A stretch of DNA of 54,919 nt from Spirochaetales bacterium (GTDB lineage: Bacteria; Spirochaetota; Spirochaetia; DSM-2461): NCBI GenBank assembly GCA_028532905.1, contig JAQQAM010000254.1, positions 1 to 54,919 of the forward strand, read 5' to 3'. Every line of letters starts with the position of its first letter. Positions within the stretch are counted from its first letter, which is position 1. The notes below the pieces were generated by a model. That model was not told the DNA's origin, did no database searches, and saw nothing but the letters and a program-made list of their open reading frames with translations. Positions 9,341 through 54,919 of this stretch are shown here, piece after piece. The translations under genes were made by a program, and so were the position numbers.

Positions 9341-9394
9341 ACTGGAGGCAAAACAAGTATAATATATAACATACTTGGACTAATGGAGGTGTTT

Positions 9395-9625
9395 ATGCCC
9401 CAATTATCACTCTATATAGATAAAGAGACAATGAAGGATCTCGAATCGGCTGCAAAGATGGAAAATCTATCCATTTCAAAATATACTGTCAAACTGATAA
9501 GAGAGTCGATTCATTCCAAATGGCCATCCTCCTACGGAGATCTGTACGGGAAGATAGAGGATGAATCTTTTGCTGCTGACAAAGCAGATGATTTCAGAAA
9601 AGACATTCCCAGGGAATCCCTGTAA
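9395..9625 (+). CDS. vapB: VapB-like antitoxin
   Basis: This 76-residue protein begins MPQLSLYIDKETMKDLES, a ribbon-helix-helix DNA-binding start (a beta strand and then a helix) of the kind found in toxin-antitoxin repressors. The acidic C-terminal part would wrap the toxin. The ATG at 9395 was chosen over 9385 because GGAGG at 9385-9389 sits at the right distance. Its stop overlaps the toxin start by one base (TAATG), the usual arrangement for a coupled antitoxin-toxin pair. It would bind VapC and repress its own promoter. Confidence 0.8.
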   Translation: MPQLSLYIDKETMKDLESAAKMENLSISKYTVKLIRESIHSKWPSSYGDLYGKIEDESFAADKADDFRKDIPRESL

Positions 9626-10023
9626 TGTACTGTCTTGATACAAATATCTGCATCTATTATTTGAAAGGTCTTTATCCCGGATTAAAATCCAGACTTCTTC
9701 TGGAAAATCCGGGAAATATCAGAATTCCATCTATTGTAAAAGCAGAACTTCTATACGGAGCAGAGAAAAGCCGACTGAAAGAAGAAAATCTGGAACTGAT
9801 CCGTCAGTTTCTCTTTCCTTTGGAAATTCTGGATTTCGGCAGCAGGGAAAGTGAAGAGTATTCCTTAATCAGGGCCTTTCTGGAATCCAAAGGTCAAGTC
9901 ATCGGTCCTAATGATCTCTTAATTGCTGCTACAGCCAAAGCCAGCAATGCGATCCTGATAACACACAATACAGGAGAGTTCAGCAGAGTTCCTGATCTGA
10001 AGATCGAAGACTGGACCCTCTGA
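9625..10023 (+). CDS. vapC: VapC-like PIN-domain ribonuclease toxin
   Basis: The 132-residue protein is a PIN-domain nuclease. It carries D5 in CLDTNICIYY, E41 in SIVKAELLYG, D97 in GPNDLLIAATA and E118 in LITHNTGEF, which together form the Mg2+-binding acidic site. VapC toxins cleave tRNA or rRNA when free of VapB. All four acids are present, so the toxin looks intact. Its stop codon ends at 10023 and the stop of the convergent URO-D-family gene begins at 10024, so there is no spacer at all. The pair sits as a two-gene insert between two URO-D/AraC modules. Confidence 0.9.
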   Translation: MYCLDTNICIYYLKGLYPGLKSRLLLENPGNIRIPSIVKAELLYGAEKSRLKEENLELIRQFLFPLEILDFGSRESEEYSLIRAFLESKGQVIGPNDLLIAATAKASNAILITHNTGEFSRVPDLKIEDWTL

Positions 10024-31952: not shown

Positions 31953-31966
31953 TGAGTTCTCCTAAG

Positions 31967-32431
31967 TTAAAAAAGTCTCTGAAAGAGTCCCTCGGGCATG
32001 GGAATCTTCAGGAAGTTATTGAAAATGGCATATATAACGACGGACACGGCAAGAGTGCTGATAATTCTTTTCAGCTGCCCCTTCTGTCCGAGATAGGTCA
32101 TCATTACATAGAGAAAAATCACAGTTGACAGGAAAAATCCCAGAAACTGCATAAGAATTAGATAAATTATGGAAATACCGACAGTGATACCTGATCTGAT
32201 CAGTCCGGTAAGGTGAATTCCCTCAAGATCAGTCTGAGAGTTCCCTCTGACTGCATTCACCATAAGCAGTATGGAAGTAATAAAAAGAAGAATAGCCATA
32301 GCCTGCGGGAAAACGTTGGGTCCGTACTCACTGACACCTTTTCCCTTGTACTGGTTGGCATAGAGAAAAACTGCCGTGCTGAAAACAGAAAGAGCAGCTC
32401 CTACGGATATATCGATCCGTTTACTGTTCAT
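31967..32431 (-). CDS. tctB: Tripartite tricarboxylate transporter, small membrane subunit TctB
   Basis: This 154-residue protein has four membrane segments, as expected for TctB (ALSVFSTAVFLYANQY near the start and a C-terminal AIFNNFLKIPMPEGLF). The ATG at 32431 was chosen over an upstream start because AGGAG lies eight bases before it. It pairs with TctA downstream. The 122 bases before it, between it and tctC, hold three hairpins. Confidence 0.85.
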   Translation of the reverse strand: MNSKRIDISVGAALSVFSTAVFLYANQYKGKGVSEYGPNVFPQAMAILLFITSILLMVNAVRGNSQTDLEGIHLTGLIRSGITVGISIIYLILMQFLGFFLSTVIFLYVMMTYLGQKGQLKRIISTLAVSVVIYAIFNNFLKIPMPEGLFQRLF

Positions 32432-32450
32432 AAATAAAACTCCTAACAAA

Positions 32451-32542
32451 TCTGCAGATTTGGTCTGCAGAATGAACCCGGCCCTGGAGCCGGGTTCTGA
32501 AAATCATGTACCGTCTTCCGGATTCAGCCGGAACCGGACGGT
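32451..32542 (-). other. Three consecutive RNA hairpins between tctC and tctB
   Basis: In transcript order these are ACCGTC...GACGGT with inner TTCCGG/CCGGAA (32542-32510), GAACCCGGC/GCCGGGTTC (32497-32474) and TCTGCAG/CTGCAGA (32471-32451). None is followed by a U-tract, so they look like mRNA-protecting or processing structures rather than terminators. They could raise TctC over the membrane subunits. Confidence 0.65.
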
Positions 32543-32553
32543 CAATAGAATGC

Positions 32554-33528
32554 TTATTTCAGCAGTCCTACACTTTCAAGAGTGGGCTCAAGAACCTTTT
32601 CCATATTGGAGAGGAACTCCTCGTATCCGGCAGAATTCTTGTAAACCAGATTGAGACCGACTTCATCACAGAAAGCTCTGAACTCAGGATCGTCGAACAT
32701 CTTTTTGAAACCCTCTTCCAAAATGGCGACAACTTCGGGATCCACACCCTTGGGAAGAGCCAGTCCTCTCCAGTCCAGTACAGGAGCGGAGATATCGTAA
32801 CCGGCTTCTACAACAGTGGGGATATCGGGAAATCCGGCTTCTTCTACAACATTGTTAACAGAAAGAACCTTGACTTCACCTGCTTCATAAAGCTGTTTGA
32901 TTTCGGCAATTCCGGCTACAGCTACATCCACGTGTCCGCCGAGAACAGCAGAACGGGCGGGAGCGGCACCATCGAAGGGTACATAGTTGAACTCAATTCC
33001 CAGCTCTGTCGCCAGAGAGGCAGCAGAAAGGTGTTTGTCGCCACCGGCTCCAGTGTGTCCCAGAGAAACCTGTCCGGGATTGGCTTTGGCGTACTCTACA
33101 AGATCCTTAAGAGAGTCCCACTGAGAGTCAGCGTTTACATACAGAACAGCAGCACTCTGATTCAGGAGCTGAAGCAGTTCAAAATCTCTGTAAGTCATAT
33201 CAGACAGACCCATCAGGTTGTATGTACTGAGACCGAAAGTGATCATACCGACTGTGTATCCGTCAGGACGGGCAGCCATGGCAGCACCCATACCGACAAC
33301 ACCCTGTCCGCCGGTTTTGTTCACAACATTTACATTGACTCCGATATGCTCGGGAGCATTTTTAACAAGGGCACGGGCAATAGTGTCTGTTCCGCCTCCG
33401 GCAGACCAGGGAACAATCAGAGTAATGTCCTTATTGGGGAAAGAACTACCTTTGTCCTGCTGACCTTCAGCAGAGATCATTCCACCGAACAGAGCCAGTA
33501 CGATAAGTATCGCAGCAATTTTTTTCAT
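32554..33528 (-). CDS. tctC: TctC-type solute-binding protein
   Basis: This 324-residue periplasmic protein of the Bug/TctC family has a signal peptide (MKKIAAILIVLALFGGMISA, then EGQQD). The mature part shows the family opening DITLIVPWSAGGGTDTIAR, the ligand loop VNKTGGQGVVG and RPDGYTVG. Translation starts at 33528, since AGGAG lies seven bases before that ATG. The open frame to 33657 is only a read-through extension. It delivers a carboxylate or similar acid to TctAB. It lies 121 bases after the GlcG-like gene in the IclR-controlled operon. Confidence 0.93.
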   Translation of the reverse strand: MKKIAAILIVLALFGGMISAEGQQDKGSSFPNKDITLIVPWSAGGGTDTIARALVKNAPEHIGVNVNVVNKTGGQGVVGMGAAMAARPDGYTVGMITFGLSTYNLMGLSDMTYRDFELLQLLNQSAAVLYVNADSQWDSLKDLVEYAKANPGQVSLGHTGAGGDKHLSAASLATELGIEFNYVPFDGAAPARSAVLGGHVDVAVAGIAEIKQLYEAGEVKVLSVNNVVEEAGFPDIPTVVEAGYDISAPVLDWRGLALPKGVDPEVVAILEEGFKKMFDDPEFRAFCDEVGLNLVYKNSAGYEEFLSNMEKVLEPTLESVGLLK

Positions 33529-40547: not shown

Positions 40548-42098
40548 TCAATCGTTACAACAAACAGGTTCTTCCTCTTCGAGGACAACTTTCTCATGAG
40601 ATTTTTTATTCACTCTGGGAAGAAAAATCGCAAAAAACAGTGTCAGAAGCAGAAAAAACAGGCTGTCCGGGCTTGTGAGAAATATCATTGGATTCCCATT
40701 GCTCAGAGACAGAGCCGTCCGTAGATACAACTCAAACAGGGGTCCCAGAATGACGCCCAGAATAAAGGGGACCTTCGGATAGTTCTGACGTCCCAGAAAA
40801 TACATCAGGACACCGATTCCAAGGGCAACACCCATCTGAAAGAAATCCAGGGTGGATGAATAAACACCCAGAATGGCAATCAGGCCGATACCGCTGTATA
40901 AAGGCATTCGGGGAATAGCCGCAATTTTCAGATAAAATGGGCCAAAGAGGAACAGAGACAGGGGAAGCAGAACCAGGGCTGCAATAAACAGTGCTATAAA
41001 CATGGGAGCAATATCGCCCATCTGATGGGTCAGCAGGGTGGGTCCTGGCACAATGCCGTAGATCATCAGTACACCCAGTACAACCGCTGTTACCCCGTCC
41101 CCGGGAATACCCAGAGAGAGCATGGGAATCAGAGCCCCACCGCAAACGGCATTATTGGCTGTTTCTGCGGCTACCATACCTTCATTGAATCCCTTACCAT
41201 ATTTTTCAGGGTATTTTGAGCTTCTTTTGGCTTCCGCATAGGAAACAAAGGCAGCCATTGAAGCGCCGCTTCCCGGCAGAACTCCAATAAGATATCCAAT
41301 CAACGCACTTTTCACATATGTAACAAAACCGATCTCTTTCATTTCGCTGAGAGAAGGGAAGAAATCTTTGCGTTTAAATCTTTTGGTATTGGCTTTTCTG
41401 ACCCGCTCCCTGTATTCAGCATTGTTGACAGTGGATTGTGCCAGGATTTCACTTAAGGCGAATGCTCCGATAATAATCGTTGTCAGCTCAATTCCCTGCA
41501 GCATGCTGGGAATCTGGAATGTAAAACGGGAGGCACTGCTCAGTACATCCATACCAATTGTGGAGAGCATACAACCAAAGACGAGAGAGATAAGCCCCTT
41601 AGCCTTACTGTCAGAGAGAAGAGAAACAACAACCAGTGCAAAGAAGACAAGGGCCCCCTTACCGGGTGTTCTGATTTTCAGAGCCAGTTCCATAGTGACT
41701 GGAGCAACCAGAATCAGAAGAATACTGCCGATAGTTCCCCCGATGGCAGAACCGATGGTTACAGAACCAATGGCTTTGGCCCCTTCTCCCCTGCGCATCA
41801 TGGGATACCCTTCCAGGTTAGTCATCATGGATGCGGGAGCACCGGGTATATTAATGGTGATAGCAGAAATACATCCGGAATAGGTACCGGCCATATAAAC
41901 ACCGGCACACATGACCAGTGCCTGAGAAAGAGGCATGGAGTAGGTCATGGGCAGAAGAAGAACTATTGCCAGTGTAGCTGTCAGCCCGGGAAGGCTTCCA
42001 AAAATAATTCCGATAAAAAATCCCAGACTGAGAAACATCAGGGACATAGGGTTTGTCAGGATGGAAAAACCCTGGAGAATTTGCATAAAACTTTCCAT
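40548..42098 (-). CDS. tctA: Tripartite tricarboxylate transporter TctA (second set)
   Basis: The 516-residue, ~12-segment TctA permease shows FGSLPGLTATLAIVLLLPM, GVLPGSGASMAAFVSYAEAK and LSLGIPGDGVTAVVLGVL. The ATG at 42098 lies one base after the tctB stop, and a longer open frame to 42164 would only overlap tctB. It ends with an acidic tail that includes a Cys pair (EEEEPVCCND). It belongs to the GntR-led operon and probably imports a sugar acid for the DapA-family enzyme encoded next, 34 bases on. Confidence 0.93.
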   Translation of the reverse strand: MESFMQILQGFSILTNPMSLMFLSLGFFIGIIFGSLPGLTATLAIVLLLPMTYSMPLSQALVMCAGVYMAGTYSGCISAITINIPGAPASMMTNLEGYPMMRRGEGAKAIGSVTIGSAIGGTIGSILLILVAPVTMELALKIRTPGKGALVFFALVVVSLLSDSKAKGLISLVFGCMLSTIGMDVLSSASRFTFQIPSMLQGIELTTIIIGAFALSEILAQSTVNNAEYRERVRKANTKRFKRKDFFPSLSEMKEIGFVTYVKSALIGYLIGVLPGSGASMAAFVSYAEAKRSSKYPEKYGKGFNEGMVAAETANNAVCGGALIPMLSLGIPGDGVTAVVLGVLMIYGIVPGPTLLTHQMGDIAPMFIALFIAALVLLPLSLFLFGPFYLKIAAIPRMPLYSGIGLIAILGVYSSTLDFFQMGVALGIGVLMYFLGRQNYPKVPFILGVILGPLFELYLRTALSLSNGNPMIFLTSPDSLFFLLLTLFFAIFLPRVNKKSHEKVVLEEEEPVCCND

Positions 42099-42099
42099 A

Positions 42100-42612
42100 T
42101 TACTTCCAAACCTCCGGAAACAGGATATTAAAAAAACCGACGTACAGAACATAAACAAATACACTTATGATCAATGCGGTAATTATTTTTCTGGGGAAAT
42201 GTTCCAGTTTGTCGTCATAAATCAACTGAAAGAGGAACAGATACAGGGGGGCGGTTAATGTATAACCGAGGAATTTAAACAGAATAATAAAAATAAAAGT
42301 TAACAGAGTAATCAGAACGGGCTTATGGGCCGGTTTTATTCCGAATCCCTCTGACTCAGTCTCTGAACAACCAGAACCCTCCCCGTCTGTCTGGACCGGA
42401 AGATTCTTTTTTGTTTCAAGAAGACCTGTCACCAACAGATAAACGGCAACGGGAAAACCGAGTAAAAAGATCACAAAGGGAAAAAAGGATGCTGTCGGAA
42501 GCCCCTGGTATATAAGGCCTCCCATCCTGAAAGTTTCTGCCACATAGCCCAGGAGTATTACCATAATACCTATGGGTGTCAGAACACTGGAATTTAAATA
42601 GGGGTTTTTCAT
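42100..42612 (-). CDS. tctB: Tripartite tricarboxylate transporter TctB (second set)
   Basis: The 170-residue, four-segment protein fits TctB by size, position and its end (SVFVYVLYVGFFNILFP). It has a longer central loop than the first TctB, rich in Gly/Ser/Glu (residues ~70-95). AAGGAG lies eleven bases before the ATG, directly after a terminator-like hairpin. Confidence 0.87.
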   Translation of the reverse strand: MKNPYLNSSVLTPIGIMVILLGYVAETFRMGGLIYQGLPTASFFPFVIFLLGFPVAVYLLVTGLLETKKNLPVQTDGEGSGCSETESEGFGIKPAHKPVLITLLTFIFIILFKFLGYTLTAPLYLFLFQLIYDDKLEHFPRKIITALIISVFVYVLYVGFFNILFPEVWK

Positions 42613-42629
42613 TTTTAAAATGACTCCTT

Positions 42630-42666
42630 AAAAAAAGGGTGACAGCCTACACCACAGCCATCACCC
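42630..42666 (-). terminator. Terminator/attenuator between tctC and tctB (second set)
   Basis: Read leftward, GGGTGA (42666-42661) pairs with TCACCC (42642-42637) and is followed by seven T residues. It lies between tctC and the tctB ribosome site, so most transcripts should end after tctC. Confidence 0.75.
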
Positions 42667-42682
42667 GTTTATCACAAATGGA

Positions 42683-43663
42683 TTAAATTAATCCTTTCTC
42701 TTTCAGTTCCTGAAGAGCTGAAAAGGCTCTGTCCTGAATATCTTTGATATAGACATTGACTTCCGCTCTATCCATAGATACAGGCGTTACACCAATGCTG
42801 TTGCAATAGTCGATAAACTCATCACCATCAACAGCCTTTTTGAAAGAATCGGCAAGCAGGTTGACAATGTTTTCAGGAGTTCCTTTGGGAACAGCCAGGG
42901 CAAAGAAAGAACCGCTCTGCATGCTGGCAGGCATCCCCAGATCGGGACAGGAAGGAACAGAAGTGTACTTACCATTGGTTTTAGGGCTGAACTCAACCAG
43001 ACCGACAGCATCACCGGAATCGATAATGGGAGAAAAGTCACCAAGGCTGTTCACACCCACAGCAAGTTCCTTATTCAGAATAGCCTCACGCATGGCACCG
43101 GAACCGTTGTAAGCAACATTGTTGAACTTGACACCATACATTTCTTCAACCTGACGGACAATCATATAGGTTCTGGAACCGGCTCCCTGGTCAGCAACAG
43201 TAATTGTGTTGGGAGCAGCCTTGGCCTTCTCAATCAGATCCTCAAAAGATGTGATACCACTATGAGTACCAGCAACAAAAGAGTCTGCCTCTGCAGAAAC
43301 CATACCGAAGATCTCAAGATCATTCAGGTCGTATCCGGGAAGTACTTCATCCCATACTGCAGTAACACAGGAACCGTACAGAAGCTGACCGACTGTATAT
43401 CCGTCGGGTTTTGCTTTCATCAGCATACTGGGACCGTTGGCATCGGAAGAACCGCCTTTGTTCACAATGTAAAAATCTTTACCAAGATCTTTCTGCACAA
43501 TGGAACAGATCTTACGGGACAGGGCATCTGCACCACCACCGGCATTACCGGCACTGATAAACTGAATGTCTTTGCTGGGATAGGTATCATCCTTCTGACC
43601 TTCTGCAAACACCATGGAACTTGTTAAAAGAACCAAACAAACCAGAGCTATTACTCTTTTCAT
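42683..43663 (-). CDS. tctC: TctC-type solute-binding protein (second set)
   Basis: The 326-residue Bug/TctC-family periplasmic protein has a signal peptide (MKRVIALVCLVLLTSSMVFA, then EGQKDD), the ligand loops FISAGNAGGGADALSRK and VNKGGSSDANG, and KPDGYTVGQLLYG. It differs at the ligand loops from the TctC at 32.5 kb, so the substrate is probably different. Its ATG overlaps the gntR stop as ATGA, so regulator and binding protein are translationally coupled. Confidence 0.93.
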   Translation of the reverse strand: MKRVIALVCLVLLTSSMVFAEGQKDDTYPSKDIQFISAGNAGGGADALSRKICSIVQKDLGKDFYIVNKGGSSDANGPSMLMKAKPDGYTVGQLLYGSCVTAVWDEVLPGYDLNDLEIFGMVSAEADSFVAGTHSGITSFEDLIEKAKAAPNTITVADQGAGSRTYMIVRQVEEMYGVKFNNVAYNGSGAMREAILNKELAVGVNSLGDFSPIIDSGDAVGLVEFSPKTNGKYTSVPSCPDLGMPASMQSGSFFALAVPKGTPENIVNLLADSFKKAVDGDEFIDYCNSIGVTPVSMDRAEVNVYIKDIQDRAFSALQELKEKGLI

Positions 43664-44531: not shown

Positions 44532-45290
44532 TCAGTTTTTAAACTTACGGGCAATGTCCCTCAGCCCGTCATATAAAATATGAATATCCATATTACTCAT
44601 TACCATTCCCATATTTCCGGTTATCCAGCGATCCATCAGCTCCCCACCGGCATGCATGGCAAAAATTTTATCATTTTTTTCCGCTGCATCAGCAACCTGA
44701 CCAATAGCATCCCCGACTTCAGATCCAGTCAAATCACCAGGAACTCCCAGAGATACTGCGAGATCATTAGGTCCGATAAGAAGTACATCCAGTCCGGGAA
44801 CAGAGGCAATCTCATTAATAGCGTTTACACCTTCAGAAGTCTCTATTTGAGCTATAACAAGGGTATTCCTGTTTTGCTGATCCATAAACTCTTCTACATC
44901 CTGTGGGCTTCTAACCATGGATGTATGTGGTCCTACGGTACTCAGTCCCCTCTTGCCAAGAGGAACATAGCGAGACCATGCAACCAGTTTCTCTGCTTCC
45001 TCACGGCTGCTGATCATAGGAACCATAACCCCGTCAGCTCCCAGATCCATTACTCTCGAGACCCAGGCTTTTGACAGTTCAGGAACTCTGACCAGTATTC
45101 CCAGATCTATGGATCTGGCCAGTCTGGCTGCATCCGAAAAAGTTTCCAGACTGTAATCACCATGTTCCATATCATACATTAAAAAATCCAGTCCAGCTGC
45201 TTTTGCAATCTGACAGATTCCGGAATTCCGGCTGAAACGGATCATGGTACCAACAATACGGCGCCCTTTTTTTACTTCATTGATATTCAT
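44532..45290 (-). CDS. HpcH/HpaI-family class II aldolase
   Basis: The 252-residue protein is a metal-dependent pyruvate aldolase of the HpaI / GarL / YfaU type. It shows FLMYDMEHGDYSLETF with catalytic H43, ILVRVPE with the pyruvate-binding arginine, DGVMVPMISSREEAE, the metal ligand Glu in IAQIETSEGV and Asp in LIGPNDLAVSLG. It splits 2-keto-3-deoxy acids into pyruvate and an aldehyde. It is a single-gene unit with its own promoter carrying GGTATACC and its own terminator. It fits the product expected from the nearby dehydratase (ManD-like) operon, but the substrate is not proven. Confidence 0.9.
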   Translation of the reverse strand: MNINEVKKGRRIVGTMIRFSRNSGICQIAKAAGLDFLMYDMEHGDYSLETFSDAARLARSIDLGILVRVPELSKAWVSRVMDLGADGVMVPMISSREEAEKLVAWSRYVPLGKRGLSTVGPHTSMVRSPQDVEEFMDQQNRNTLVIAQIETSEGVNAINEIASVPGLDVLLIGPNDLAVSLGVPGDLTGSEVGDAIGQVADAAEKNDKIFAMHAGGELMDRWITGNMGMVMSNMDIHILYDGLRDIARKFKN

Positions 45291-46184: not shown

Positions 46185-46676
46185 TCAGGACTCTCTCAAA
46201 ACCTGTTCCAGATAATCAATTTTCTCATTAAAGGGAACAGCTATATCCAGATGGAGACCATATTCAGGTACTTCAAGTGTATCCAGCTGACTCCGAAGCA
46301 TTTCCTTTTTAAAAAAATGGTTATCCCTGTTTTCCATGCGCTCCGTCAGTAAATCATATGACCCTTTCAGATATACCCACTCCAGAGAGTCGGGTTCCCC
46401 TCCGGAAAGGATCTGCCTGTATGATTCCTTCAAAGCAGAACAGGAAAAGACAGCCGATCCTCCTGACTCCCTGTATTGGTCAATTTTCTTTTTTATCCTG
46501 TCCAGCCATGGTTTTCGGTCCGCATCATCTAAAGGTTCACCCTGACTCATTTTATCAATATTGGCTTTGGGATGAAAACTGTCAGCTTCCTCATAACAAA
46601 GGTTGAGCCTGTCGGCAAGCGCCTTTCCAACAGTGGATTTACCGCAGCCGCTGACACCCATAATCATGATGATCAT
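46185..46676 (-). CDS. gntK: Gluconokinase (GntK-like)
   Basis: The 163-residue P-loop kinase has MGVSGCGKSTVGKALA (G7-x-S-G-C-G-K-S-T), EEADSFHPKANIDKMSQGEPLDDADRKPWL given here in part as EEADSFHPKANIDKM, and the lid RMENRDNHFFKKEMLRSQ. All are standard for thermoresistant gluconokinase, which phosphorylates gluconate with ATP. The usual GHFM lid is DNHFF here, a mild change. Its ATG overlaps the isomerase stop as ATGA. As the last gene of the sugar-acid operon it may phosphorylate gluconate or a related hexonate. Confidence 0.9.
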   Translation of the reverse strand: MIIMIMGVSGCGKSTVGKALADRLNLCYEEADSFHPKANIDKMSQGEPLDDADRKPWLDRIKKKIDQYRESGGSAVFSCSALKESYRQILSGGEPDSLEWVYLKGSYDLLTERMENRDNHFFKKEMLRSQLDTLEVPEYGLHLDIAVPFNEKIDYLEQVLRES

Positions 46677-47488
46677 ACATATCTCTCCAGTAGTTCTTTG
46701 ACATAGGCTATATCTCTGCGAATCAGGGGGATCACATCATCTCCTTCCAGAAGGTTCTTCCCGTCTGAATATTCTGCATGAAGGCAAATATCCTTCAGAC
46801 ATTCAGCCTTTATCAGTTCTGTTACAACAGAACTCCAGGAGCAGAATCCTTCCCGTCCTTCTGTCCATCGAATTTGCCAGACAGTGTCCTGTGTCTCTGA
46901 TACAGGACATAATTCCCTGACAGCATTTTTCAGATTCATATAGAGAATACGATTATTCAAAATATCCAGAGCCATATCCACAGGTTCTCCCGAGAGTTGA
47001 CAATGGGCGAAATCGGGTACAGCACCAGCAATATCTTCCGGCAAATCCCTAATCAGATCCATTACCCCGACAGCACTACCGATAAAATAACTATGATGAT
47101 TCTGGATTCCGATCCTGACTTTATTCGCACGCAGTACATCCCCCAGACTTATAATTTTGTCCTTTACTGACTGTACAGATTTAAAATATCCCTGACCCAT
47201 ATTCACCGGAACCATAACTCTGAGAACCGGGATTTCAGCATCACCCATCAATTGGATGATCTCATCCGTAGGATCAGCTGAAACAGCAGCTACAGCCAAA
47301 CCTTTTTCAGAAAAAATATCCTTTGCCGCAGGCAGAGTATCTGCCGCATTTTCAGGTGTTATCTGAAAGCCGTCCCGTACCGGCAGCTCCACACCATCAA
47401 CACCTAAATCCAATGCCAGATCAGCCAAAGCTCTCAGGGAAAGAGATTTCCATGGTTTTGTAAACAGAATAATCCGGTTTGAATCCAA
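46673..47488 (-). CDS. Sugar phosphate isomerase/epimerase, TIM barrel
   Basis: The 271-residue xylose-isomerase-like TIM-barrel protein shows LGVDGVELPVRDGF at the start (Glu on strand 2), VRIGIQNHHSYFIG in the middle and GAVPDFAHCQLSG with the Asp/His pair, then CLHAEYSDG near the end. Members isomerise or epimerise sugars or cyclic polyols with a divalent metal. It lies five bases after the Gfo/Idh/MocA gene, a very common pairing in which the dehydrogenase makes a keto-sugar for the isomerase. The specific substrate is unknown. Confidence 0.8.
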   Translation of the reverse strand: MDSNRIILFTKPWKSLSLRALADLALDLGVDGVELPVRDGFQITPENAADTLPAAKDIFSEKGLAVAAVSADPTDEIIQLMGDAEIPVLRVMVPVNMGQGYFKSVQSVKDKIISLGDVLRANKVRIGIQNHHSYFIGSAVGVMDLIRDLPEDIAGAVPDFAHCQLSGEPVDMALDILNNRILYMNLKNAVRELCPVSETQDTVWQIRWTEGREGFCSWSSVVTELIKAECLKDICLHAEYSDGKNLLEGDDVIPLIRRDIAYVKELLERYV

Positions 47489-47493
47489 AACTA

Positions 47494-48627
47494 TCAGCTT
47501 AACTCCGTCCAGGAGCGGTTTTCCCTAATCAGATCAATAATTCTCTGATAAAGAGCACCGTCTTTAAAAGTCTGATAAGGTTCTACAGACTCACCATTCA
47601 AATCCTTTACGAACAGGCTGGCCAAATGAGTCCAATTCCTCTGGGTATCATCCTCGATATCCGGCAGAGAAGCTGCTATATCCTCTGGAAGGGGAAGTTC
47701 TTCCCACTCTCCTTTTGCATTATATAGATAAAGAGGGCCGGCTCCATAGTGCCCTTTGACAAAGAGAGCCCCTTTACTCCCGTAGAATACGATATGGTCA
47801 TCGGTAAAACGGGGGACCAGTCCGCCATGCTTGAATAGAACAGAAACCGGTTGAGCAGCAGGATAGTCACTCTCGATTTTAGCCATTACCGTATAGGACC
47901 ACTCGGCATTCACTTCTCCCCATTCCAGATCCGGATCATCCAGATTCTCGGGAATGAAGTCCCGTCTTGTCAGGAAGTTATGAACACCTTTTACAACTGG
48001 AGCCTTCTTCATATCATTTCTGACTTCACCACTGACAGCTGTAACTGTATCACCAAGAACGTAGGTTATGATGGATAGAAGATGGGTGAAGTTGTTATTT
48101 AAGCGACCGCCGCCCTGTTCAATTCTGTGAGACCAGCCAAAGGGAATATCAGGGTTCAGATTAAAATGAGAAATACTCTCTACTTCACGGGGTTCTCCTA
48201 TAACCCCCTGAGCCACAAGTCTTTTGGCGTGAATCACTTCAGGCATATAGCGATAGGAAGCGGCAAAGGCTGTTTTCACCCCTTTTTCAACTGATTTCCT
48301 GTATAGTTCTTCAGATCGTTCACTGCTCTCGGCCAGAGGTTTGTCACAGTAGACATGACATCCGGCTTCCAGTGCATCCAGAATCGTTTCGAAATGAGCG
48401 CCACCGGGTGTGGCGATGGAAACAATATCAGGCTGACAGGCTTTCAATGCCTCCTTCCAGTCTGTACCGTAATAAGGAATATTCATTTTTTCTGCGACTT
48501 CGGCAACAACCGATGGAGTTCTCCCTACAATACCGGCAATTTCAGCTCCTGCTTCCCGAAAAGCTTTGGCATGCCCCTGTCCGGCGAAACCGGTACCCAT
48601 AACAAGAACTGTTTTTTTATTACTCAT
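47494..48627 (-). CDS. Gfo/Idh/MocA-family oxidoreductase
   Basis: The 377-residue NAD(P)-dependent dehydrogenase has an N-terminal Rossmann fold (VLVMGTGFAGQGHAKAFREAG), the family motif as YCDKPLAES (EKP is usual) and the C-terminal alpha/beta substrate domain (GGGRLNNNFTHLLSI, with the catalytic His in the N-N-F-T-H stretch). Such enzymes oxidise or reduce sugars, inositols or sugar acids. It lies 59 bases after the second permease gene and five before the isomerase gene. The substrate probably comes from the ABC importer of the operon. Confidence 0.9.
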   Translation of the reverse strand: MSNKKTVLVMGTGFAGQGHAKAFREAGAEIAGIVGRTPSVVAEVAEKMNIPYYGTDWKEALKACQPDIVSIATPGGAHFETILDALEAGCHVYCDKPLAESSERSEELYRKSVEKGVKTAFAASYRYMPEVIHAKRLVAQGVIGEPREVESISHFNLNPDIPFGWSHRIEQGGGRLNNNFTHLLSIITYVLGDTVTAVSGEVRNDMKKAPVVKGVHNFLTRRDFIPENLDDPDLEWGEVNAEWSYTVMAKIESDYPAAQPVSVLFKHGGLVPRFTDDHIVFYGSKGALFVKGHYGAGPLYLYNAKGEWEELPLPEDIAASLPDIEDDTQRNWTHLASLFVKDLNGESVEPYQTFKDGALYQRIIDLIRENRSWTELS

Positions 48628-48667
48628 TTTAAATCCTTCTCATCCATTTTTTCAGCTTGGAATACAC

Positions 48668-48687
48668 ATGACCCTTTCCCGGGTCAT
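48668..48687 (-). other. Hairpin after the second ABC permease gene
   Basis: ATGACCC and GGGTCAT (48668-48674, 48681-48687) form a 7-bp stem right at the permease stop. No U-tract follows, so it is more likely an mRNA-stabilising structure than a terminator. Confidence 0.45.
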
Positions 48688-49523
48688 CAGCCTTTTACAG
48701 CCCCGGCAGTAACACCCTGTACAAACTGCTTTTGCAGCAGCAGATAAACAACTATAACCGGGAGGGTCAGAATCATAATTCCGGCAAACAGCTTTCCAAA
48801 AGCCATAGTTTCCTCACCCTGGAAAGCCAGAAGTCCGACAGGCAGGGTTTTCTTTGCCTGGGAACTCAGAAAAATCAGCGGAAACCAGAAGTTGTTCCAT
48901 ACAAAAACAATATTAAAAATGGCTACTGCAGTTATAGATGATTTACTTAAAGGAAGAATGATCTTTGTAAACAGAGAATACTGCGTTGCCCCGTCGATCA
49001 TGGCGGCCTCTTCCAGTTCCCGGGGGATTCCCTCAATAAAGCCGGTCATAATAAAAGTGGCAAAGGCAATTCTGAAAGCTATAAAAATCAGAACAACCCC
49101 GAAGATCGTGTTGTACAGACCCAGATTCCTGATCTGTACAAACAAAGGCATCAGGCTGACCTGAACAGGGACTGTAATACCGATGACCAGCAGAGTGTTG
49201 ATGAACTTTTTACCGATAAGATCCTGACGGCTCAGAGCAAATGCTGTCAGCAGTGAAAAAATCAGAATGAACCCTACTGAAGCCGTGGTGATTACGATAC
49301 TGTTCATATAGTACATTCCGAATTTGCCGTTGACCCAGGCGTCTGCATAATTGCCGAACTGAAACTGATTGGGCAAACCGAAAAGGTTTGTATAAATTTC
49401 TGTATCACCTTTGAGGGAATTGATAAAAACAAGCCATACGGGATACATAAAAACCATGGCAGCCAGAGTCATAATTGAATACTTGATGAAGTGTTTTCTT
49501 TTTTTTGTTTTAAGATAACTCAC
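48687..49523 (-). CDS. ABC sugar transporter permease (MalG-like, CUT1)
   Basis: The 278-residue protein has six membrane segments and the EAA loop that contacts the ATPase: EGIPRELEEAAMIDGATQYS, then FTKIILPLSKS. It ends GVTAGAVKG, the characteristic end of MalG-like permeases. It starts at a GTG overlapping the other permease gene (GTGA). With the binding protein and its partner it imports an oligosaccharide or sugar acid. No ATPase gene lies in the operon, so a shared MsmK-type ATPase encoded elsewhere is expected. Confidence 0.94.
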   Translation of the reverse strand: MSYLKTKKRKHFIKYSIMTLAAMVFMYPVWLVFINSLKGDTEIYTNLFGLPNQFQFGNYADAWVNGKFGMYYMNSIVITTASVGFILIFSLLTAFALSRQDLIGKKFINTLLVIGITVPVQVSLMPLFVQIRNLGLYNTIFGVVLIFIAFRIAFATFIMTGFIEGIPRELEEAAMIDGATQYSLFTKIILPLSKSSITAVAIFNIVFVWNNFWFPLIFLSSQAKKTLPVGLLAFQGEETMAFGKLFAGIMILTLPVIVVYLLLQKQFVQGVTAGAVKG

Positions 49524-50428
49524 GATTTAACTCCTTTATCCTCACGGAGAAACCATCTTTGTATGGCTGATGTCAGAACAACAACACAAAGGAGAATCAC
49601 TGCGATGGCATTGGAAAAACCGACCTTCCTGTACGTAAATCCCTGCCTGAAAAGAAGGGTCGTCAGAACTTCAGTTGTACCGAATGCCGATCCCCCTTCT
49701 GTCATGATAAAGATCAGGTCAAAAGATCTCATACCGAAAATTAGAACAAGGACCATAACCATGGCAGCCACACGTCTCAACAGGGGCAGGGTGACATGCC
49801 AGATGGTCTGCCATGAGCTCGCCCCCTCTATGGCAGTTGCCTCATACAGCTCTTCCGGGATTTCCTGAAGACCCGCAATATAAAGAATCATACTGAACCC
49901 GAGATTCTGCCATACATGCACCAGAGCCACACAGGCCAGGGCCGTTTTGGGATCTGCCAGCCAGGCAGTCGTTAAGGATTCAAGTCCTATAGCGCTCAGA
50001 GCCGTATTCAGAACTCCGAAATTGGGGTTGTAGATACCCAGGGTCCACATGGAACCGATGGCGACGGTAGCCAGAACACCGGGCAGATAAAATATTGTTC
50101 TGAATACATTGTTCAGTCGACTGGGTCTATGTATCAGAAGGGCTATAATCAAACCCATGAGGTTTGATCCGATCATCAGAATAAATGTATAGATAAAAGT
50201 ATTTTTCAATGCAATGTAGAAACGTGTGTCTTTTGTAAACAGATCCACATAGTTGCGGAATCTGACAAATTCCATTTCAGGAGCCATTCCATCCCATTTA
50301 AAGAAACTCCACACAAGGGCTTTCGCATTGGGAAAAATAAAAAAAACAAAATAAATAGTCAGAGGCAGCAGGAGAAACGAATAGTATGCTGCATTTCTCT
50401 TCAAAAGTGCCTTTGTGGATAATGTCAT
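49520..50428 (-). CDS. ABC sugar transporter permease (MalF-like, CUT1)
   Basis: The 302-residue permease has six membrane segments and the EAA loop IPEELYEATAIEGASSWQT followed by WHVTLPLLR. The opening Y-Y-S-F-L-L-L-P-L-T-I-Y and the DLIFIMTEGGSAFGTTEV stretch are typical of CUT1 MalF-type subunits. It is separated from the binding-protein gene by a strong terminator-like hairpin and overlaps the second permease gene by four bases. Confidence 0.94.
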   Translation of the reverse strand: MTLSTKALLKRNAAYYSFLLLPLTIYFVFFIFPNAKALVWSFFKWDGMAPEMEFVRFRNYVDLFTKDTRFYIALKNTFIYTFILMIGSNLMGLIIALLIHRPSRLNNVFRTIFYLPGVLATVAIGSMWTLGIYNPNFGVLNTALSAIGLESLTTAWLADPKTALACVALVHVWQNLGFSMILYIAGLQEIPEELYEATAIEGASSWQTIWHVTLPLLRRVAAMVMVLVLIFGMRSFDLIFIMTEGGSAFGTTEVLTTLLFRQGFTYRKVGFSNAIAVILLCVVVLTSAIQRWFLREDKGVKS

Positions 50429-50442
50429 AGCAAAACCCTCAC

Positions 50443-50495
50443 AAAAAAAATATAGAATCCGGAGCCGTAGCTCCGGATCTGATAATAATCAGATC
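50443..50495 (-). terminator. Terminator/attenuator between binding-protein and permease genes
   Basis: Transcript order gives GATCTGAT/ATCAGATC (50495-50476), then ATCCGGAGC-TACG-GCTCCGGAT (50478-50457), followed by TCTATA and eight T residues. The second stem is closed by a C(UACG)G tetraloop, one of the extra-stable UNCG class. The two stems share GAT, so they may be alternatives. Confidence 0.85.
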
Positions 50496-50504
50496 AGTAC
50501 AGAA

Positions 50505-51770
50505 TCAGCGTTCAATACCGTCGATTTTGGTCTGCATTTCAGCAATGACATCATCCGTATCCAGACCGATGGCAACCTTAGTAAATGTTTCGTACAGAGT
50601 CTGCTGCACTTCATTGTTTGTATTGGCCAGGTTGGGACCCAGAACACCTTCGCCCGAAGCCAGGAAGTCCATAACCATTTTGATAACGGGAGATTCAACT
50701 GGTGTATCTTTTACAGTGGGAACCATATTGGCCACATTGGCATAGATAGACTGTGATTCTTTGTTCATCAGGTGATCATAGAACTTCAAAGAGGGCTCGA
50801 TATTTTTGGACTGGGGGAAAATCAGGTGGGCCTGATTGGGGTGTACAATCCGAACAGTTTTGTCTGCGTCGCCTTTGTAGGGGAGAGCAAATAAACCGAA
50901 TTCAGGAGCCCCTTCAGTGCTGGCGATAGTATTGGTTCTCCAGGCACCTTCAACATTCATGGCAACTTTACCCTGTGCAAACAGAGCTGCAGCACCGTGT
51001 TTGTCTACACCTTCCACACCGCTGACATAATATCCCTGATCATACAGGAATTCGATGTCTCTCATGATTGTGGGCATGGGTTCATCAGCAAGAGTCATCT
51101 TCTTTAATGTGATGTTCTGCCAGTAGTCGGGAGACTCTTCGGGTTTCCAGTGGGCGGCCATCATTTTATAGAAATTCTGGGCAATATAGTGCTGGGACAG
51201 ACCCGCGACAAGGGGAGTTACACCATTGGACTGAAGAGTATCGCAGATAGCTATAAACTCATCCCATGTAGTGGGAATCTCAAGATTGTATTCAGCGAAG
51301 ATTTCTTTATTATAGAAAACACACATTGTACTGGTCGCCTGGGATACACCGTATGTAACACCGTCATAGGTCGCTGCAGCTTTGGCTCCGGGAAGAACCC
51401 TGTCAACAAAGGGCTGATCCGTAACATCCAGAGCAAAATTGGACTGTACATAGGCAGCCAGCTGACCACCGGGCTGAGCAGCATAGAAATCCAGCTCTCC
51501 ACCCATACCGCGGGTCGTTACAATACCATCATAGGTTGTACCGCCCTTAAAATATTCAACATTAACCTTGATGTTGGGATTAGCAGCCTCAAAGTTTTCA
51601 ATAATCAGATCATAAGCAGCCGAGTCATCTCCCCTCCATGTAATAAAAGAAAGTGTTTCCTGCTTCTCACCGCCAGCCTCCTGCTGACCGGTCGCTCCCA
51701 CATTTGCCAGAACTGCCATCGCAAGAACAGCAACCAAAAGAACAGATTTAATAAATCCTTTGCTCTTCAT
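50505..51770 (-). CDS. ABC sugar-binding protein (CUT1)
   Basis: The 421-residue extracellular binding protein has a signal peptide (MKSKGFIKSVLLVAVLAMAV, then LANVGATGQQE) and the type 1 fold of the MalE/UgpB group: LSFITWRGDD at the start, VFYNKEIFAEYNLEIPTTWDEF, then FAQGKVAMNVEGAWR. The ligand could be an oligosaccharide or glycoside, and sequence alone does not tell. It is separated from the aldo/keto reductase gene by 53 bases and from the permeases by a terminator-like hairpin. Confidence 0.93.
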   Translation of the reverse strand: MKSKGFIKSVLLVAVLAMAVLANVGATGQQEAGGEKQETLSFITWRGDDSAAYDLIIENFEAANPNIKVNVEYFKGGTTYDGIVTTRGMGGELDFYAAQPGGQLAAYVQSNFALDVTDQPFVDRVLPGAKAAATYDGVTYGVSQATSTMCVFYNKEIFAEYNLEIPTTWDEFIAICDTLQSNGVTPLVAGLSQHYIAQNFYKMMAAHWKPEESPDYWQNITLKKMTLADEPMPTIMRDIEFLYDQGYYVSGVEGVDKHGAAALFAQGKVAMNVEGAWRTNTIASTEGAPEFGLFALPYKGDADKTVRIVHPNQAHLIFPQSKNIEPSLKFYDHLMNKESQSIYANVANMVPTVKDTPVESPVIKMVMDFLASGEGVLGPNLANTNNEVQQTLYETFTKVAIGLDTDDVIAEMQTKIDGIER

Positions 51771-51823
51771 CTAAAATACCTCCATATTTTTCAAACTGCC
51801 TGTGGCAGTTTTTTACCAGATTA

Positions 51824-52804
51824 TCAGCGGGTTCTACCTTTTCCCCACATATCAATATCACTGCCCAGCTGAGCCTTCACCTCATCTGTTGCTGCAGTCA
51901 GTTTATCGATGATTCCCTGCTCCAGATTGACATCCATCAGCTTTGAGAGAGCTTTACTCTGCTCAGCGTTTCTTGTTCCGACAATAACGCCGCCCACAGC
52001 TTTTCGGGATTTAAGCCATCCCACAGCCAGTTCTTCCATGGACAGCCCGGTTTCATCCACGAGGGCCCATATATCATCCAGAGCCTTTTGTCCGGCTTCC
52101 TCTGCTCCGGGACGTGAGTGGGCGCATTCTTCCCATTTTTTATGATCAAAAAGAGTCGTTCTTGCCCGGTTTACCGGAAACTCGTCAAGGGATCTGTACT
52201 TTCCTGCCAGAAGCCCCTGCATCAAAGAGGAGTAGCACATGATGGGAACATTATTCTCTTCACAGAGAGACTGAACATCAAATTCGATAGCTCTGTGAAA
52301 CAGATGATAAGGAAGCTGATTAGCTACAATATCTCCACTGGAAAGGGCATCAGCAAGATCCAGTTTTCCAAAGTTTGAAACTCCGTAGTATCGAATCTTC
52401 CCCTGCTTTTTCAACGTTTCCAGAGTCTGAATTGTGTCTTCCAGAGGAACATCCCGATTGGGCCAGTGGAGCAGATAAATATCAATGTAGTCGCTCTGCA
52501 GATGCTTCAGACTCCTCTCACAGGAAGCAATCAGATCTGTTTCAGCAAAATTTTCTTTTCTGGGTTTGGATGAAATGACAATATCCTGTCTTTTATCTCC
52601 CAGAGCCTTATGAAGGAGCTGCTCTGAGTAGCCGTCACCATAGGCTTCTGCAGTATCAAAAAAGTTCAGACCTGCCTCATAGGCTCCTCTGAGGGCCTCA
52701 ATGGAATCCTTCTCTTCCTGAGCTCCGAAAGCACCGGCTCCGCCCATGCACCCGTATACGATGGGACTTGTCTTCAGATCAGTTTTCCCAAATTGTTTTT
52801 TCAT
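51824..52804 (-). CDS. Aldo/keto reductase
   Basis: The 326-residue NADPH-dependent reductase has the complete catalytic tetrad: D50 in FFDTAEAYG, Y55, K80 in VISSKPRK and H113 in IYLLHWPN. The cofactor site near the C-terminus reads GGVIVGTRNAEQ. Enzymes of this type reduce keto or aldehyde groups of sugars, or oxidise the reverse. It is the second gene after manD, so it may convert the sugar before or after dehydration. The substrate is unknown. Confidence 0.92.
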   Translation of the reverse strand: MKKQFGKTDLKTSPIVYGCMGGAGAFGAQEEKDSIEALRGAYEAGLNFFDTAEAYGDGYSEQLLHKALGDKRQDIVISSKPRKENFAETDLIASCERSLKHLQSDYIDIYLLHWPNRDVPLEDTIQTLETLKKQGKIRYYGVSNFGKLDLADALSSGDIVANQLPYHLFHRAIEFDVQSLCEENNVPIMCYSSLMQGLLAGKYRSLDEFPVNRARTTLFDHKKWEECAHSRPGAEEAGQKALDDIWALVDETGLSMEELAVGWLKSRKAVGGVIVGTRNAEQSKALSKLMDVNLEQGIIDKLTAATDEVKAQLGSDIDMWGKGRTR

Positions 52805-52889
52805 ATTCTACTCCTGTCTGCTCCGGATAAGAGATCCATCCGGGCATTACTTTTGATTACTCCGCCGGCCGCTCCTTTAACCAGGGGCT

Positions 52890-54107
52890 CTACCAGCTCC
52901 ACAAAGTCCCGTCTTCCAGTCTGCTGACAGGCAGATAGGAACGTTTGTAGGGATATTTCTTTGCTGCCTGTTCATCAAAATCCACGCCAAGACCGGGTGA
53001 ATCTCCGACAGAGACCATTCCGTCCTGGAGTTTCAGATCATATTTGAACACTTCATTGGACTGTTTTGTTCCGAATCCGACAAACTCCTGCACTCCGAAA
53101 TTGGGAGCCCACATATTGAGATGGCCATGAGCTGCATGACAGATGGGAGACAGGTCAGGAGCCCCATGAGGAGCTGTCCGGACATGATACATTGAAGCGA
53201 AATCAGCAATACGTCTCATGGCAGTAATTCCTCCTGCATGGGTGGCTGCCATCCTGATGTAATCAATCCACTGATTCTGAATCAAATCTTTACAGTCCCA
53301 GATTGTGTTGTAAATTTCACCCAATGCCTGGGGAGTTGTTGTGTGGTCCCGTACAATTCTGTAACTCTCCTGATTTTCAGCGGCAACCGCATCTTCAAGG
53401 AAAAGCAGATTATATGGTTCAAGCAATTTTCCCAGACGACCCGCTTCTATGGGAGTCAGGCGGCTATGGACATCATGGCAGAGATGAATATTGTTTCCAA
53501 AACGTTCCCTGGCTTTGGCAAAGAGTTCTTCTATCATGTTGAAGTACTTCAAAGTGGACCATGGCAGCTCCGGGGGGAGGGGTCTGTCACTCTGTAGCTC
53601 AAAATAATTTTTTTTATCTCCCAGAACGCCATAGGTTCCATCCAGGCCGGGGATGGCAGACTGAAGCCTGACAGCCTTGAATCCCTGATTTACCAGAAAC
53701 GCCATGTTTTCCAGGGTATCTTCAACAGTATTGCCGGTGGCATGACCGTAAAGGGTAAAAGCTTTTCTGCTTTTTCCACCCAGAAGCTGATACACCGGCA
53801 GACCGGCGGCTTTACCTTTAATGTCCCACAAAGCCATATCCACGGCCCCGATAGCGGCCATTGTAATAGGACCTTTTCTCCAGTAGACACCCTTGTAAAG
53901 ATACTGCCAGATATCTTCAATATCATGTGCGTTTCTACCGATGAGACAGGGAGCCACATGCTCTTCAAGGTAGGCAGCTACAGCCATTTCACGGCCGTTG
54001 ACAGTCCCGTCACCCAATCCGTAAATACCGGTATCTGTAATTATTTTAACTGTTACAAAGTTTCTACCCGGGCTGCTTACTATGACTCGGACTTCTTTAA
54101 TTTTCAC
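52890..54107 (-). CDS. manD: D-mannonate/D-gluconate dehydratase family (ManD, RspA-like)
   Basis: The 405-residue enolase-superfamily enzyme matches the ManD group. It shows [20 protein letters not shown], metal ligands D212 (CHDVHSRL), E238 ([12 protein letters not shown]) and E264 ([11 protein letters not shown]), H314 ([12 protein letters not shown]), and the Tyr159/Arg147 pair at the positions recalled for Novosphingobium ManD. ManD dehydrates D-mannonate and/or D-gluconate to 2-keto-3-deoxygluconate, although some RspA-like members are weak or have other substrates. It starts at a GTG with AAGG eight bases upstream. It is the first gene of the operon, opposite a LacI gene. Confidence 0.9.
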
Positions 54108-54128: not shown

Positions 54129-54203
54129 TAAACCGGTTTACTACTAAAACAAACGATATTCACCACAACTTCAATATATAAATCGGTTTAGTAAATCGGA
54201 TTA
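54129..54203. promoter_or_regulatory. Three LacI-type operators TAAA(C/T)CGG(T/A)TTA
   Basis: The sites are TAAACCGGTTTA (54129-54140, perfect palindrome), TAAATCGGTTTA (54179-54190) and TAAATCGGATTA (54192-54203), with 50- and 13-bp steps. The last one overlaps the expected start of the manD transcript. A further half-site, TAAACTG, lies at 54226-54232 in the -35 region. The divergent LacI protein probably binds them. Confidence 0.75.
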
Positions 54204-54209
54204 GCTCAG

Positions 54210-54237
54210 TCTATATCCACAACTACTAAACTGTCAA
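54210..54237 (-). promoter_or_regulatory. Promoter of the manD operon
   Basis: On the minus strand TTGACA (54237-54232) and TATAGA (54215-54210) are 16 bp apart. Transcription would start at about 54203, inside the third LacI site, leaving a ~96-base leader before the manD GTG. Confidence 0.7.
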
Positions 54238-54284: not shown

Positions 54285-54919
54285 ATGAAAAAAATCAGAA
54301 TCATTGATGTCGCTGAACATGCGGGGGTATCAAAAAGTACAGTATCCCAATACCTGAACGGACGGTTCAGCTATATGTCGCCAGAAACAAAAAAAAGAAT
54401 CAAAGGTGCCATTGAGGAACTGGATTACATACCCAATCCGATTGCCCGCAGTCTTAAGACGGACAAAACAAAAACAATCGGTGTTATCGTAAGCGCTATC
54501 ACTGGAGTTTTTACGGGCCGGGTCATCCGGGGCATTGATGATTACTGCAAAAATAACGGCTATAACGTTATGATCTACAACACCGATTTCGATGCAGAAA
54601 TTGAAAAAAAGTCTTTCGAGATGCTGAAACAGATGAGAGTAGACGGACTGATCATTGCCTCGACAGGAAAAAACAACGATCTTTTCGCCTCTCAGGTAAA
54701 AGCCGGTTTCCCCATCGTACAGGTCCATATTGAGTTTGATGACCTGAAAAGCAGCATTGTTCTCTCCGACTACAGAGCCGGAGGGTTCCTGGCGACTGAA
54801 TATCTGATAAAACTCGGCCATAAAAGAATCTGCTTTATAACCCAGGAGTATGAAAATGTCCGTTCCCGGTATGATCGTTTTCTGGGCTATAAGGAAGCCC
54901 ATGACAAATACGGCCTTCC
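54285..54919 (+). CDS. LacI-family transcription regulator (runs off right edge)
   Basis: The first 211 codons are visible. They encode the N-terminal LacI helix-turn-helix (RIIDVAEHAGVSKSTVSQYL, residues 5-24), the hinge (YIPNPIARSLKTDKT) and most of the periplasmic-binding-protein-like sensor (IGVIVSAITGVFTGRVIRGI, VLSDYRAGGFLATEYLI, GHKRICFI). It is divergent from the manD operon, and three operators lie between them, so it probably represses that operon until its sugar or sugar-acid ligand is present. The C-terminal part is outside the window. Confidence 0.93.
   Translation, partial: MKKIRIIDVAEHAGVSKSTVSQYLNGRFSYMSPETKKRIKGAIEELDYIPNPIARSLKTDKTKTIGVIVSAITGVFTGRVIRGIDDYCKNNGYNVMIYNTDFDAEIEKKSFEMLKQMRVDGLIIASTGKNNDLFASQVKAGFPIVQVHIEFDDLKSSIVLSDYRAGGFLATEYLIKLGHKRICFITQEYENVRSRYDRFLGYKEAHDKYGL

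Follow-up and report, generated by a model that had tools for sequence, protein, structure and literature searches.

Alginate is built from two monomers, D-mannuronate and L-guluronate. Published accounts of its catabolism follow the unsaturated products: as far as their accessible text goes, a 2021 review (PMC8286568) gives the unsaturated route only and contains no word beginning with "saturated" or "mannonate", a 2019 review (PMC6353982) presents for alginate only the route via 4-deoxy-L-erythro-5-hexoseulose uronate (DEH), the pathway section of a 2026 study (PMC13390454) gives the unsaturated route only, and five further articles (PMC7953866, PMC4476818, PMC5385347, PMC13377030, PMC11381880) hold nothing on a reductive fate of saturated alginate monomers. 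Saturated monomers do arise: a PL17 lyase acting on disaccharides was described to release saturated monomers in amounts equimolar to the unsaturated ones, with exo-acting oligoalginate lyases leaving one saturated monomer per disaccharide finished (PMC12336832), and saturated mannuronate and guluronate appear among exo-lyase products (PMC5809466). In di- and trisaccharides, this saturated share accounts for between one third and one half of the carbon. In the openly accessible literature, subscription papers not being searchable, we found neither a gene cluster reducing saturated alginate monomers nor the term "mannuronate reductase". Here we analyze a stretch of 54,919 nucleotides from a Spirochaetales bacterium (contig JAQQAM010000254.1; the window), in which an operon at positions 46185-54107 joins a D-mannonate dehydratase to a gluconokinase. 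We see about an even chance that this operon is the saturated-uronate arm of a locus for polyuronide, most likely alginate-type, utilization.

The operon comprises eight co-oriented genes, all on the minus strand, with intergenic gaps of -4 to 85 bases. In compact order, they encode a 405-residue protein of the D-mannonate dehydratase family in the enolase superfamily (ManD, 52890-54107, NF043051), an aldo/keto reductase and putative uronate (aldehyde) reductase (AKR, 51824-52804, PF00248, 219 bits), a CUT1-type solute-binding protein (SBP, 50505-51770, PF13416/PF01547), the CUT1 ATP-binding cassette permeases A (49520-50428) and B (48687-49523), both assigned by NCBIfam and comparison with relatives, a Gfo/Idh/MocA oxidoreductase (Gfo, 47494-48627, PF01408), a xylose-isomerase-like (AP_endonuc_2) TIM barrel as an accessory between Gfo and GntK (46673-47488, PF01261, 42 bits) and a GntK-type gluconokinase (46185-46676, TIGR01313). 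A lacI gene diverges at 54285. Pfam and NCBIfam thus bore out the gene content given in an earlier note on this DNA, which had been made from the letters alone.

The pairing of ManD with GntK can be approached from the possible substrates. If the aldehyde of each of the 16 hexuronates is reduced and the product renumbered from the carboxylate as a hexonate, D-mannonate is obtained from D-mannuronate only, and D-gluconate from L-guluronate only. The products of these two reductions are the substrates of the operon's two committed enzymes, ManD and GntK. The reverse oxidations have been described for the short-chain dehydrogenase/reductase (SDR) of an alginate pathway, a DEH reductase that in vitro oxidizes D-gluconate and D-mannonate at C6, with D-gluconate to L-guluronate being named (PMC6011931). 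From the equimolar saturated monomer set free by lyases, these reverse oxidations and the enumeration, we hence propose that AKR and/or Gfo reduce the saturated monomers. Two lyases, an AlgQ-like importer, KdgF and an SDR encoded next to the operon would import oligouronides and convert their unsaturated ends to 2-keto-3-deoxygluconate (KDG), while each chain would also leave one saturated monomer, D-mannuronate or L-guluronate. AKR and/or Gfo would then reduce the C1 aldehyde of these monomers, yielding D-mannonate or D-gluconate. ManD would dehydrate D-mannonate to KDG, which would enter unlinked KDG kinase (KdgK) and Eda, and GntK would convert D-gluconate to 6-phosphogluconate for 6-phosphogluconate dehydrogenase (Gnd). 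All catalytic steps are inferred, as are the substrate, the assignment of the reductases and what the TIM barrel and the operon importer contribute.

ManD passed the cut-off of the NCBIfam ManD equivalog NF043051 (674 versus 550 bits). Metal-ligand and catalytic positions of ManD, as well as the catalytic positions of AKR and Gfo, are those known for these families. In ManD, R147, Y159, D212, H214, E238, E264 and H314 are identical in all 23 aligned ManD proteins. Residue 316 is alanine in the window protein and proline in that of a relative from the same family (genome G014); alanine and proline at this position are markers of high versus low efficiency, which is no proof of activity on D-mannonate. 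Such activity is predicted for ManD. GntK passed TIGR01313 (167.5 versus 113.75 bits), matched the PDB gluconate kinase 1knq with 120 bits and carries the Walker A motif GVSGCGKST in its translation.

The window ends within lacI (54285-54917, plus strand, PF00356), which is interrupted by the contig end. A search of the window's own genome (G000; 4.98 Mb, 296 contigs, 95% complete) for the heparinase II/III family returned three places, one of them on contig C257 (4967 bases). At their ends, C257 and the window overlap by 19 exact bases, which restores one open frame and an intact LacI of 337 residues; at its start, C257 overlaps the end of contig C62 by 44 bases. Read through in this way, the locus encodes a regulator (IclR-like by eye), a 669-residue lyase, two permeases, an SBP, small membrane proteins and an ATPase, followed by a 629-residue lyase, a KdgF-like cupin directly behind this heparinase-fold lyase, an SDR and LacI facing them, and then the window operon. 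The lyase-locus context of the operon is well supported. The 629-residue lyase is PL17-like (57 bits to AlgL17 in the PDB, 48-52 bits to other PL17-type entries), and the 669-residue lyase (L165:2655-4664) is PL15/PL35-like (80 bits to a dermatan-sulfate epimerase, then 66 bits to an oligoalginate lyase). Because its closest PDB match is an epimerase, the latter lyase-fold protein might also epimerize uronates at C5 or act as a lyase on a different polyuronide. The best PDB matches of the SBP in the lyase locus are AlgQ1/AlgQ2 (103 bits, with the alignment in pieces), and the cupin matches unnamed cupins (118 and 112 bits) and then a pectin degradation protein and KdgF structures (77-104 bits).

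A genome of the same genus, G001, shows the same arrangement. There, a PL17-like lyase, KdgF and an SDR face LacI, and ManD, AKR, SBP, permease A, permease B, Gfo, GntK and Gnd follow. Identities to the window proteins are 86% for ManD, 77% for AKR, 77% for SBP, 84% and 79% for permeases A and B, 74% for Gfo and 53% for GntK; LacI is 72% identical over the part in the window. The gnd gene starts 33 bases behind gntK, and its product passes two 6-phosphogluconate dehydrogenase cut-offs. The earlier note had suggested a fork in which an aldonate is either dehydrated by ManD or phosphorylated by GntK, and this order of genes supports it. The same note had an imported glycoside or keto-sugar as the substrate; a uronate is likelier, because the operon adjoins a polyuronide lyase/KdgF locus in both genomes. 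In G014, the operon consists only of ManD (71%), AKR, SBP, the two permeases and Gfo, and the TIM barrel gene was found in neither the G001 nor the G014 operon. From comparing the three operons it follows that the core is made up of ManD, AKR, the importer and Gfo as the second redox enzyme. GntK is an add-on in two of the three operons, in one of them together with Gnd, and the TIM barrel is an insertion in the window alone.

ManD was found in 13 of the 297 genomes in a search of the class at a threshold of 1e-80, and the TIM barrel in four of the 98 relatives searched at 1e-10, the own genome counted. At 1e-60, Gfo turned up in one out of 392 genomes from the phylum, namely the window's own. 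As direct comparison finds the gene in both G001 and G014, these two were evidently outside the genomes drawn or scored. Out of 26 genomes from the family, four hold an ortholog of the 629-residue lyase (at least 56% identity), among them each of the three that carry a ManD operon (p ~0.002). This count of three in 26 assumes that G018, G024 and G025 lack the operon; with the 23 named genomes p is 4/1771, again ~0.002, and the test is not independent in that two of the genomes share a genus.

A core of two redox enzymes plus ManD would also suit a redox epimerization of hexonates, in which Gfo and AKR interconvert imported L-gulonate or L-idonate with D-mannonate or D-gluconate by means of enzyme families other than those of the known L-gulonate/L-idonate operons. 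Known operons do join a ManD-type dehydratase to hexonate catabolism (Wichelecki 2014, via PMC5507952), and the L-gulonate pathway of H. influenzae is described as using UxuB, UxuA, KdgK and KdgA (PMC5788505). However, the known hexonate pathways use tripartite ATP-independent periplasmic (TRAP) importers and other dehydrogenases. Pfam and NCBIfam recognized neither a TRAP importer nor known hexonate dehydrogenases in the operon; a CUT1 importer, AKR and Gfo are present instead, and a lyase locus adjoins. We therefore regard imported hexonates as a distinctly unlikely substrate.

Catalytic residues are intact in both redox enzymes. The AKR tetrad D50-Y55-K80-H113 is identical in 10 of 10 aligned orthologs, and in Gfo the D95-K96-P97 motif and N177..H182, with the lysine and histidine, are invariant in 21 of 21 aligned proteins. 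Neither AKR nor SBP reached an NCBIfam equivalog cut-off, and Gfo likewise received no equivalog assignment; PDB matches of the operon SBP are generic only. The best fold relatives of Gfo are structural-genomics entries and levoglucosan dehydrogenase, at about 22% identity. The latter is also among its best NCBIfam relatives, which could indicate 3-keto-glycoside chemistry of the levoglucosan or ThuAB type: after uptake by the CUT1 importer, Gfo would oxidize a glycoside, the TIM barrel would isomerize or eliminate, and AKR, ManD and GntK would take the released aldonate. Yet Gfo scores 96 bits against a levoglucosan dehydrogenase cut-off of 650. The TIM barrel gives a confident predicted model (mean predicted local distance difference test, pLDDT, of 94.9). 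This model comes closest in fold to sugar 3-epimerases and isomerases (9-18% identity), with 3-keto-glycoside enzymes among its many fold relatives; a sequence search of the PDB returned no hits. As neither the G001 and G014 operons nor ten related loci described below (type II) have the TIM barrel gene, it is no core step, and 3-keto-glycoside chemistry is quite improbable. The TIM barrel was rejected as a core step also in view of its family, which is widespread in unrelated contexts (80 loci kept in a scan), and the inositol and L-glucose pathways were dropped because it is not conserved.

The same scan led to the Rhodobacteraceae. Eight loci of this family (type I) combine LacI, SBP, two permeases and the TIM barrel with ManD (77-80%) and AKR (67-71%). 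All eight carry D-2-hydroxyacid dehydrogenase, SDR and ATPase genes, and seven also Gfo (61-65%); these are lower bounds, as locus L077 ends at a contig end before AKR and L159 where the fetched stretch stops. A search with Gfo found it in 13 of 295 Rhodobacteraceae. Eleven of these did not come from the TIM barrel scan, one being of type I and ten of another type (type II), in which Gfo (61-65%) is the immediate neighbor of a ManD from another subclade (48-51%), and AKR and GntK are absent. Among the ten type II loci, a heparinase-fold lyase occurs in three and an oligouronide-type SBP in four; a KdgF-like cupin and UxuA occur in two each, and a PfkB kinase, an SDR and a beta-hydroxyacid dehydrogenase in three each. 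The TIM barrel is missing from all ten. In one (G776), a PL7 gene lies about 1 kb from Gfo, as placed by genome-search coordinates. PL7 (Alginate_lyase2) exceeds its cut-off in nine of the 295 Rhodobacteraceae, namely in 6 of 13 Gfo carriers versus 3 of 282 non-carriers (Fisher p 1.6e-7, with shared ancestry ignored). In all, 11 of 22 genomes with ManD and/or Gfo have PL7 (23 were examined, G012 being without either gene), and G014 has eight matches. The association of PL7 is with carriage of the Gfo gene, not with each genome.

Since Gfo is paired with ManD in every type II locus, we may speculate on a more specific, forked version of the uronate pathway. Gfo would be the missing gene of D-mannuronate reductase and AKR an L-guluronate reductase, with mannonate going through ManD into the Entner-Doudoroff route and gluconate through GntK into the oxidative pentose phosphate route, in spirochaetes and marine Rhodobacteraceae alike. 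This division of labor is a tentative proposal, and we would rather expect some part of it to be wrong. The type I loci also bear on a bacterial form of the fungal D-glucuronate route, where AKR would reduce D-glucuronate to L-gulonate and further redox steps would lead on to D-gluconate, which GntK would channel into the pentose phosphate pathway, leaving ManD as a side branch. The fungal enzyme set consists of D-glucuronate reductase, 2-keto-L-gulonate reductase, L-idonate 5-dehydrogenase, 5-keto-gluconate reductase and gluconokinase (PMC6353982). The D-2-hydroxyacid dehydrogenase and SDR that type I loci add to AKR and Gfo would fit such a set, as would GntK plus Gnd in the G001 operon. In contrast, the spirochaete operons have no D-2-hydroxyacid dehydrogenase, no L-idonate 5-dehydrogenase-type gene was recognized in any operon compared, and ManD is left without a clear substrate, which makes a fungal-type route unlikely.

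Two further observations concern neighbors of these loci. One Rhodobacteraceae cluster contains both UxuA and a ManD of another subclade (L151:5700-6848 and 8633-9859; also L157). In this ManD, serine replaces aspartate just after a conserved Ala-Pro, and the C-terminal residue is tyrosine. The presence of both dehydratases in one cluster suggests that this ManD may use a substrate other than D-mannonate. Moreover, loci of other alphaproteobacteria (Microvirga, Inquilinus and others; L029-L037, L045, L048, L086 etc.) hold LacI and the TIM barrel, mostly with CUT1 permeases, and no ManD, AKR or Gfo ortholog of the operon type. In the loci inspected more closely (L031, L036 and L048) an SDR is present, and in the last two also a D-2-hydroxyacid dehydrogenase-like gene (by eye). 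Perhaps these loci represent a separate pathway that merged with the ManD operon in Rhodobacteraceae.

The earlier note had also stressed that KdgK and Eda are absent. For the window's contig this holds, as profile searches gave no match to the Eda or PfkB families there; for the genome it does not, and looking elsewhere recovered both. The genome has two Eda-family genes and 11 PfkB-family matches. On contig C127, an Eda gene is directly followed by a PfkB kinase gene. In the KHG/KDPG aldolase-sugar kinase fusion family, the kinase half is matched by the product of this gene with 437 bits; a KdgR-like IclR gene diverges from the pair (KdgR score 161 against an equivalog cut-off of 275). Genome-wide loss of kdgK and eda was hence rejected, given this kdgA-kdgK pair and the second Eda. 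A 6-phosphogluconate dehydrogenase gene lies on contig C249. A KDG kinase gene apart from its dehydratase has a precedent in lguH of Luteolibacter (PMC12632266).

In the scheme of the earlier note, the ManD product would instead be split unphosphorylated by an HpaI-type aldolase nearby (44532-45290). The aldolase gene is on the same strand, 894 bases beyond gntK and behind a GntR-type gene, with no terminator-like site between gntK and the latter. With 116 bits, its product falls short of the equivalog cut-offs, which are 369 or higher, and the gene was found in neither the G001 and G014 regions nor the related loci compared. It was therefore discarded as a conserved partner of the operon, and with kdgK and eda encoded elsewhere in the genome there is hardly any probability left for a splitting step of this kind. 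The region around the aldolase includes the first of two TctABC-type transporter sets (40548-43663 and 30417-33528), which is accompanied by GntR/FCD regulators, HpaI and a DapA-family protein. In Vibrio, a 2026 study (PMC13390454) describes a TctABC for oligosaccharides from alginate. By eye from translations, a sulfatase-like gene (12017-13486) and a GH4-like gene (15782-17191) suggest more polysaccharide use nearby.

Regarding regulation, the intergenic region between lacI and manD contains LacI-type operator candidates (54129-54203), the palindrome TAAACCGGTTTA at 54129 and variants at 54179 and 54192. This palindrome is common to the lacI-manD intergenic regions of the window and G001. 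A promoter-like TTGACA lies at 54237 on the minus strand (10/12 match), with site counts in the region at chance level. Within the operon, the SBP gene and the permease genes are separated by a strong, T-tailed stem-loop (50456-50479, minus strand) that might be a partial terminator, overall counts of such sites again being at chance level.

Several observations weigh against assigning the operon to saturated uronates from alginate. The lyases match alginate lyases at the superfamily level only, one of them being closer to dermatan-sulfate epimerase, and no PL7 was found in the window's genome or in G001; the polymer could therefore be another polyuronide. No copy of the palindrome turned up at the lyase cassette, so co-regulation of the cassette via the LacI operator has no support and was rejected. 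G014 has its lyase cassette on another contig than its ManD operon, and G012 (L172), a natural comparison, has the lyase-KdgF-SDR cassette without a ManD match or a lacI-ManD operon. No lyase, KdgF or GntK lies near the nine type I loci within the stretch fetched, and four of the eight type I seed genomes are without PL7. Pfam and NCBIfam recognized no UxaC or UxuB in the operon, a search that for UxaC, UxuB and UxuA did not extend to the rest of the genome. A dedicated CUT1 importer is superfluous if saturated monomers arise inside the cell. Given that a DEH reductase of the SDR family oxidizes both aldonates, AKR or Gfo may act elsewhere. Two redox enzymes where one might do, the TIM barrel and UxuA beside ManD in two loci do not yet fit.

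If the assignment to saturated uronates is correct, the odd pairing of ManD with a gluconokinase is explained, and the operon offers candidate genes for D-mannuronate and L-guluronate reduction, a step absent from the alginate literature checked. A mannuronate reductase activity (EC 1.1.1.131) was reportedly obtained from a soil Aeromonas and is said to convert D-mannuronate to D-mannonate, as proposed here; to our knowledge, it was described without a known gene. In D-glucuronate catabolism of Caulobacter, a high-efficiency ManD reportedly feeds KDG to KdgK and Eda. The window resembles this system in having a member of the ManD family whose active-site residues are intact; here, however, the operon has no UxaC or UxuB, and two other redox families are found instead.

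The other related systems were compared from the accessible parts of their descriptions. Like the operon, the fungal D-glucuronate pathway combines reduction of a uronate aldehyde with gluconokinase and the pentose phosphate pathway; in contrast, it begins at D-glucuronate, takes several more steps and has no ManD (PMC6353982). The Luteolibacter pathway for L-glucose and L-galactose resembles the present locus in its redox enzymes, a dehydratase giving KDG and a kinase gene outside the cluster, but dehydratase and substrate are different, and lyases, GntK and Gnd are absent from its description (PMC12632266). Alginate loci such as that of Vibrio sp. C42 (PMC13390454) share lyases, a putative oligouronide importer, KdgF, an SDR as candidate DEH reductase and genomic KdgK and Eda. 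Whereas the scheme given for Vibrio sp. C42 deals with unsaturated monomers only, the spirochaete locus has an extra operon with ManD, AKR, Gfo and GntK attached.

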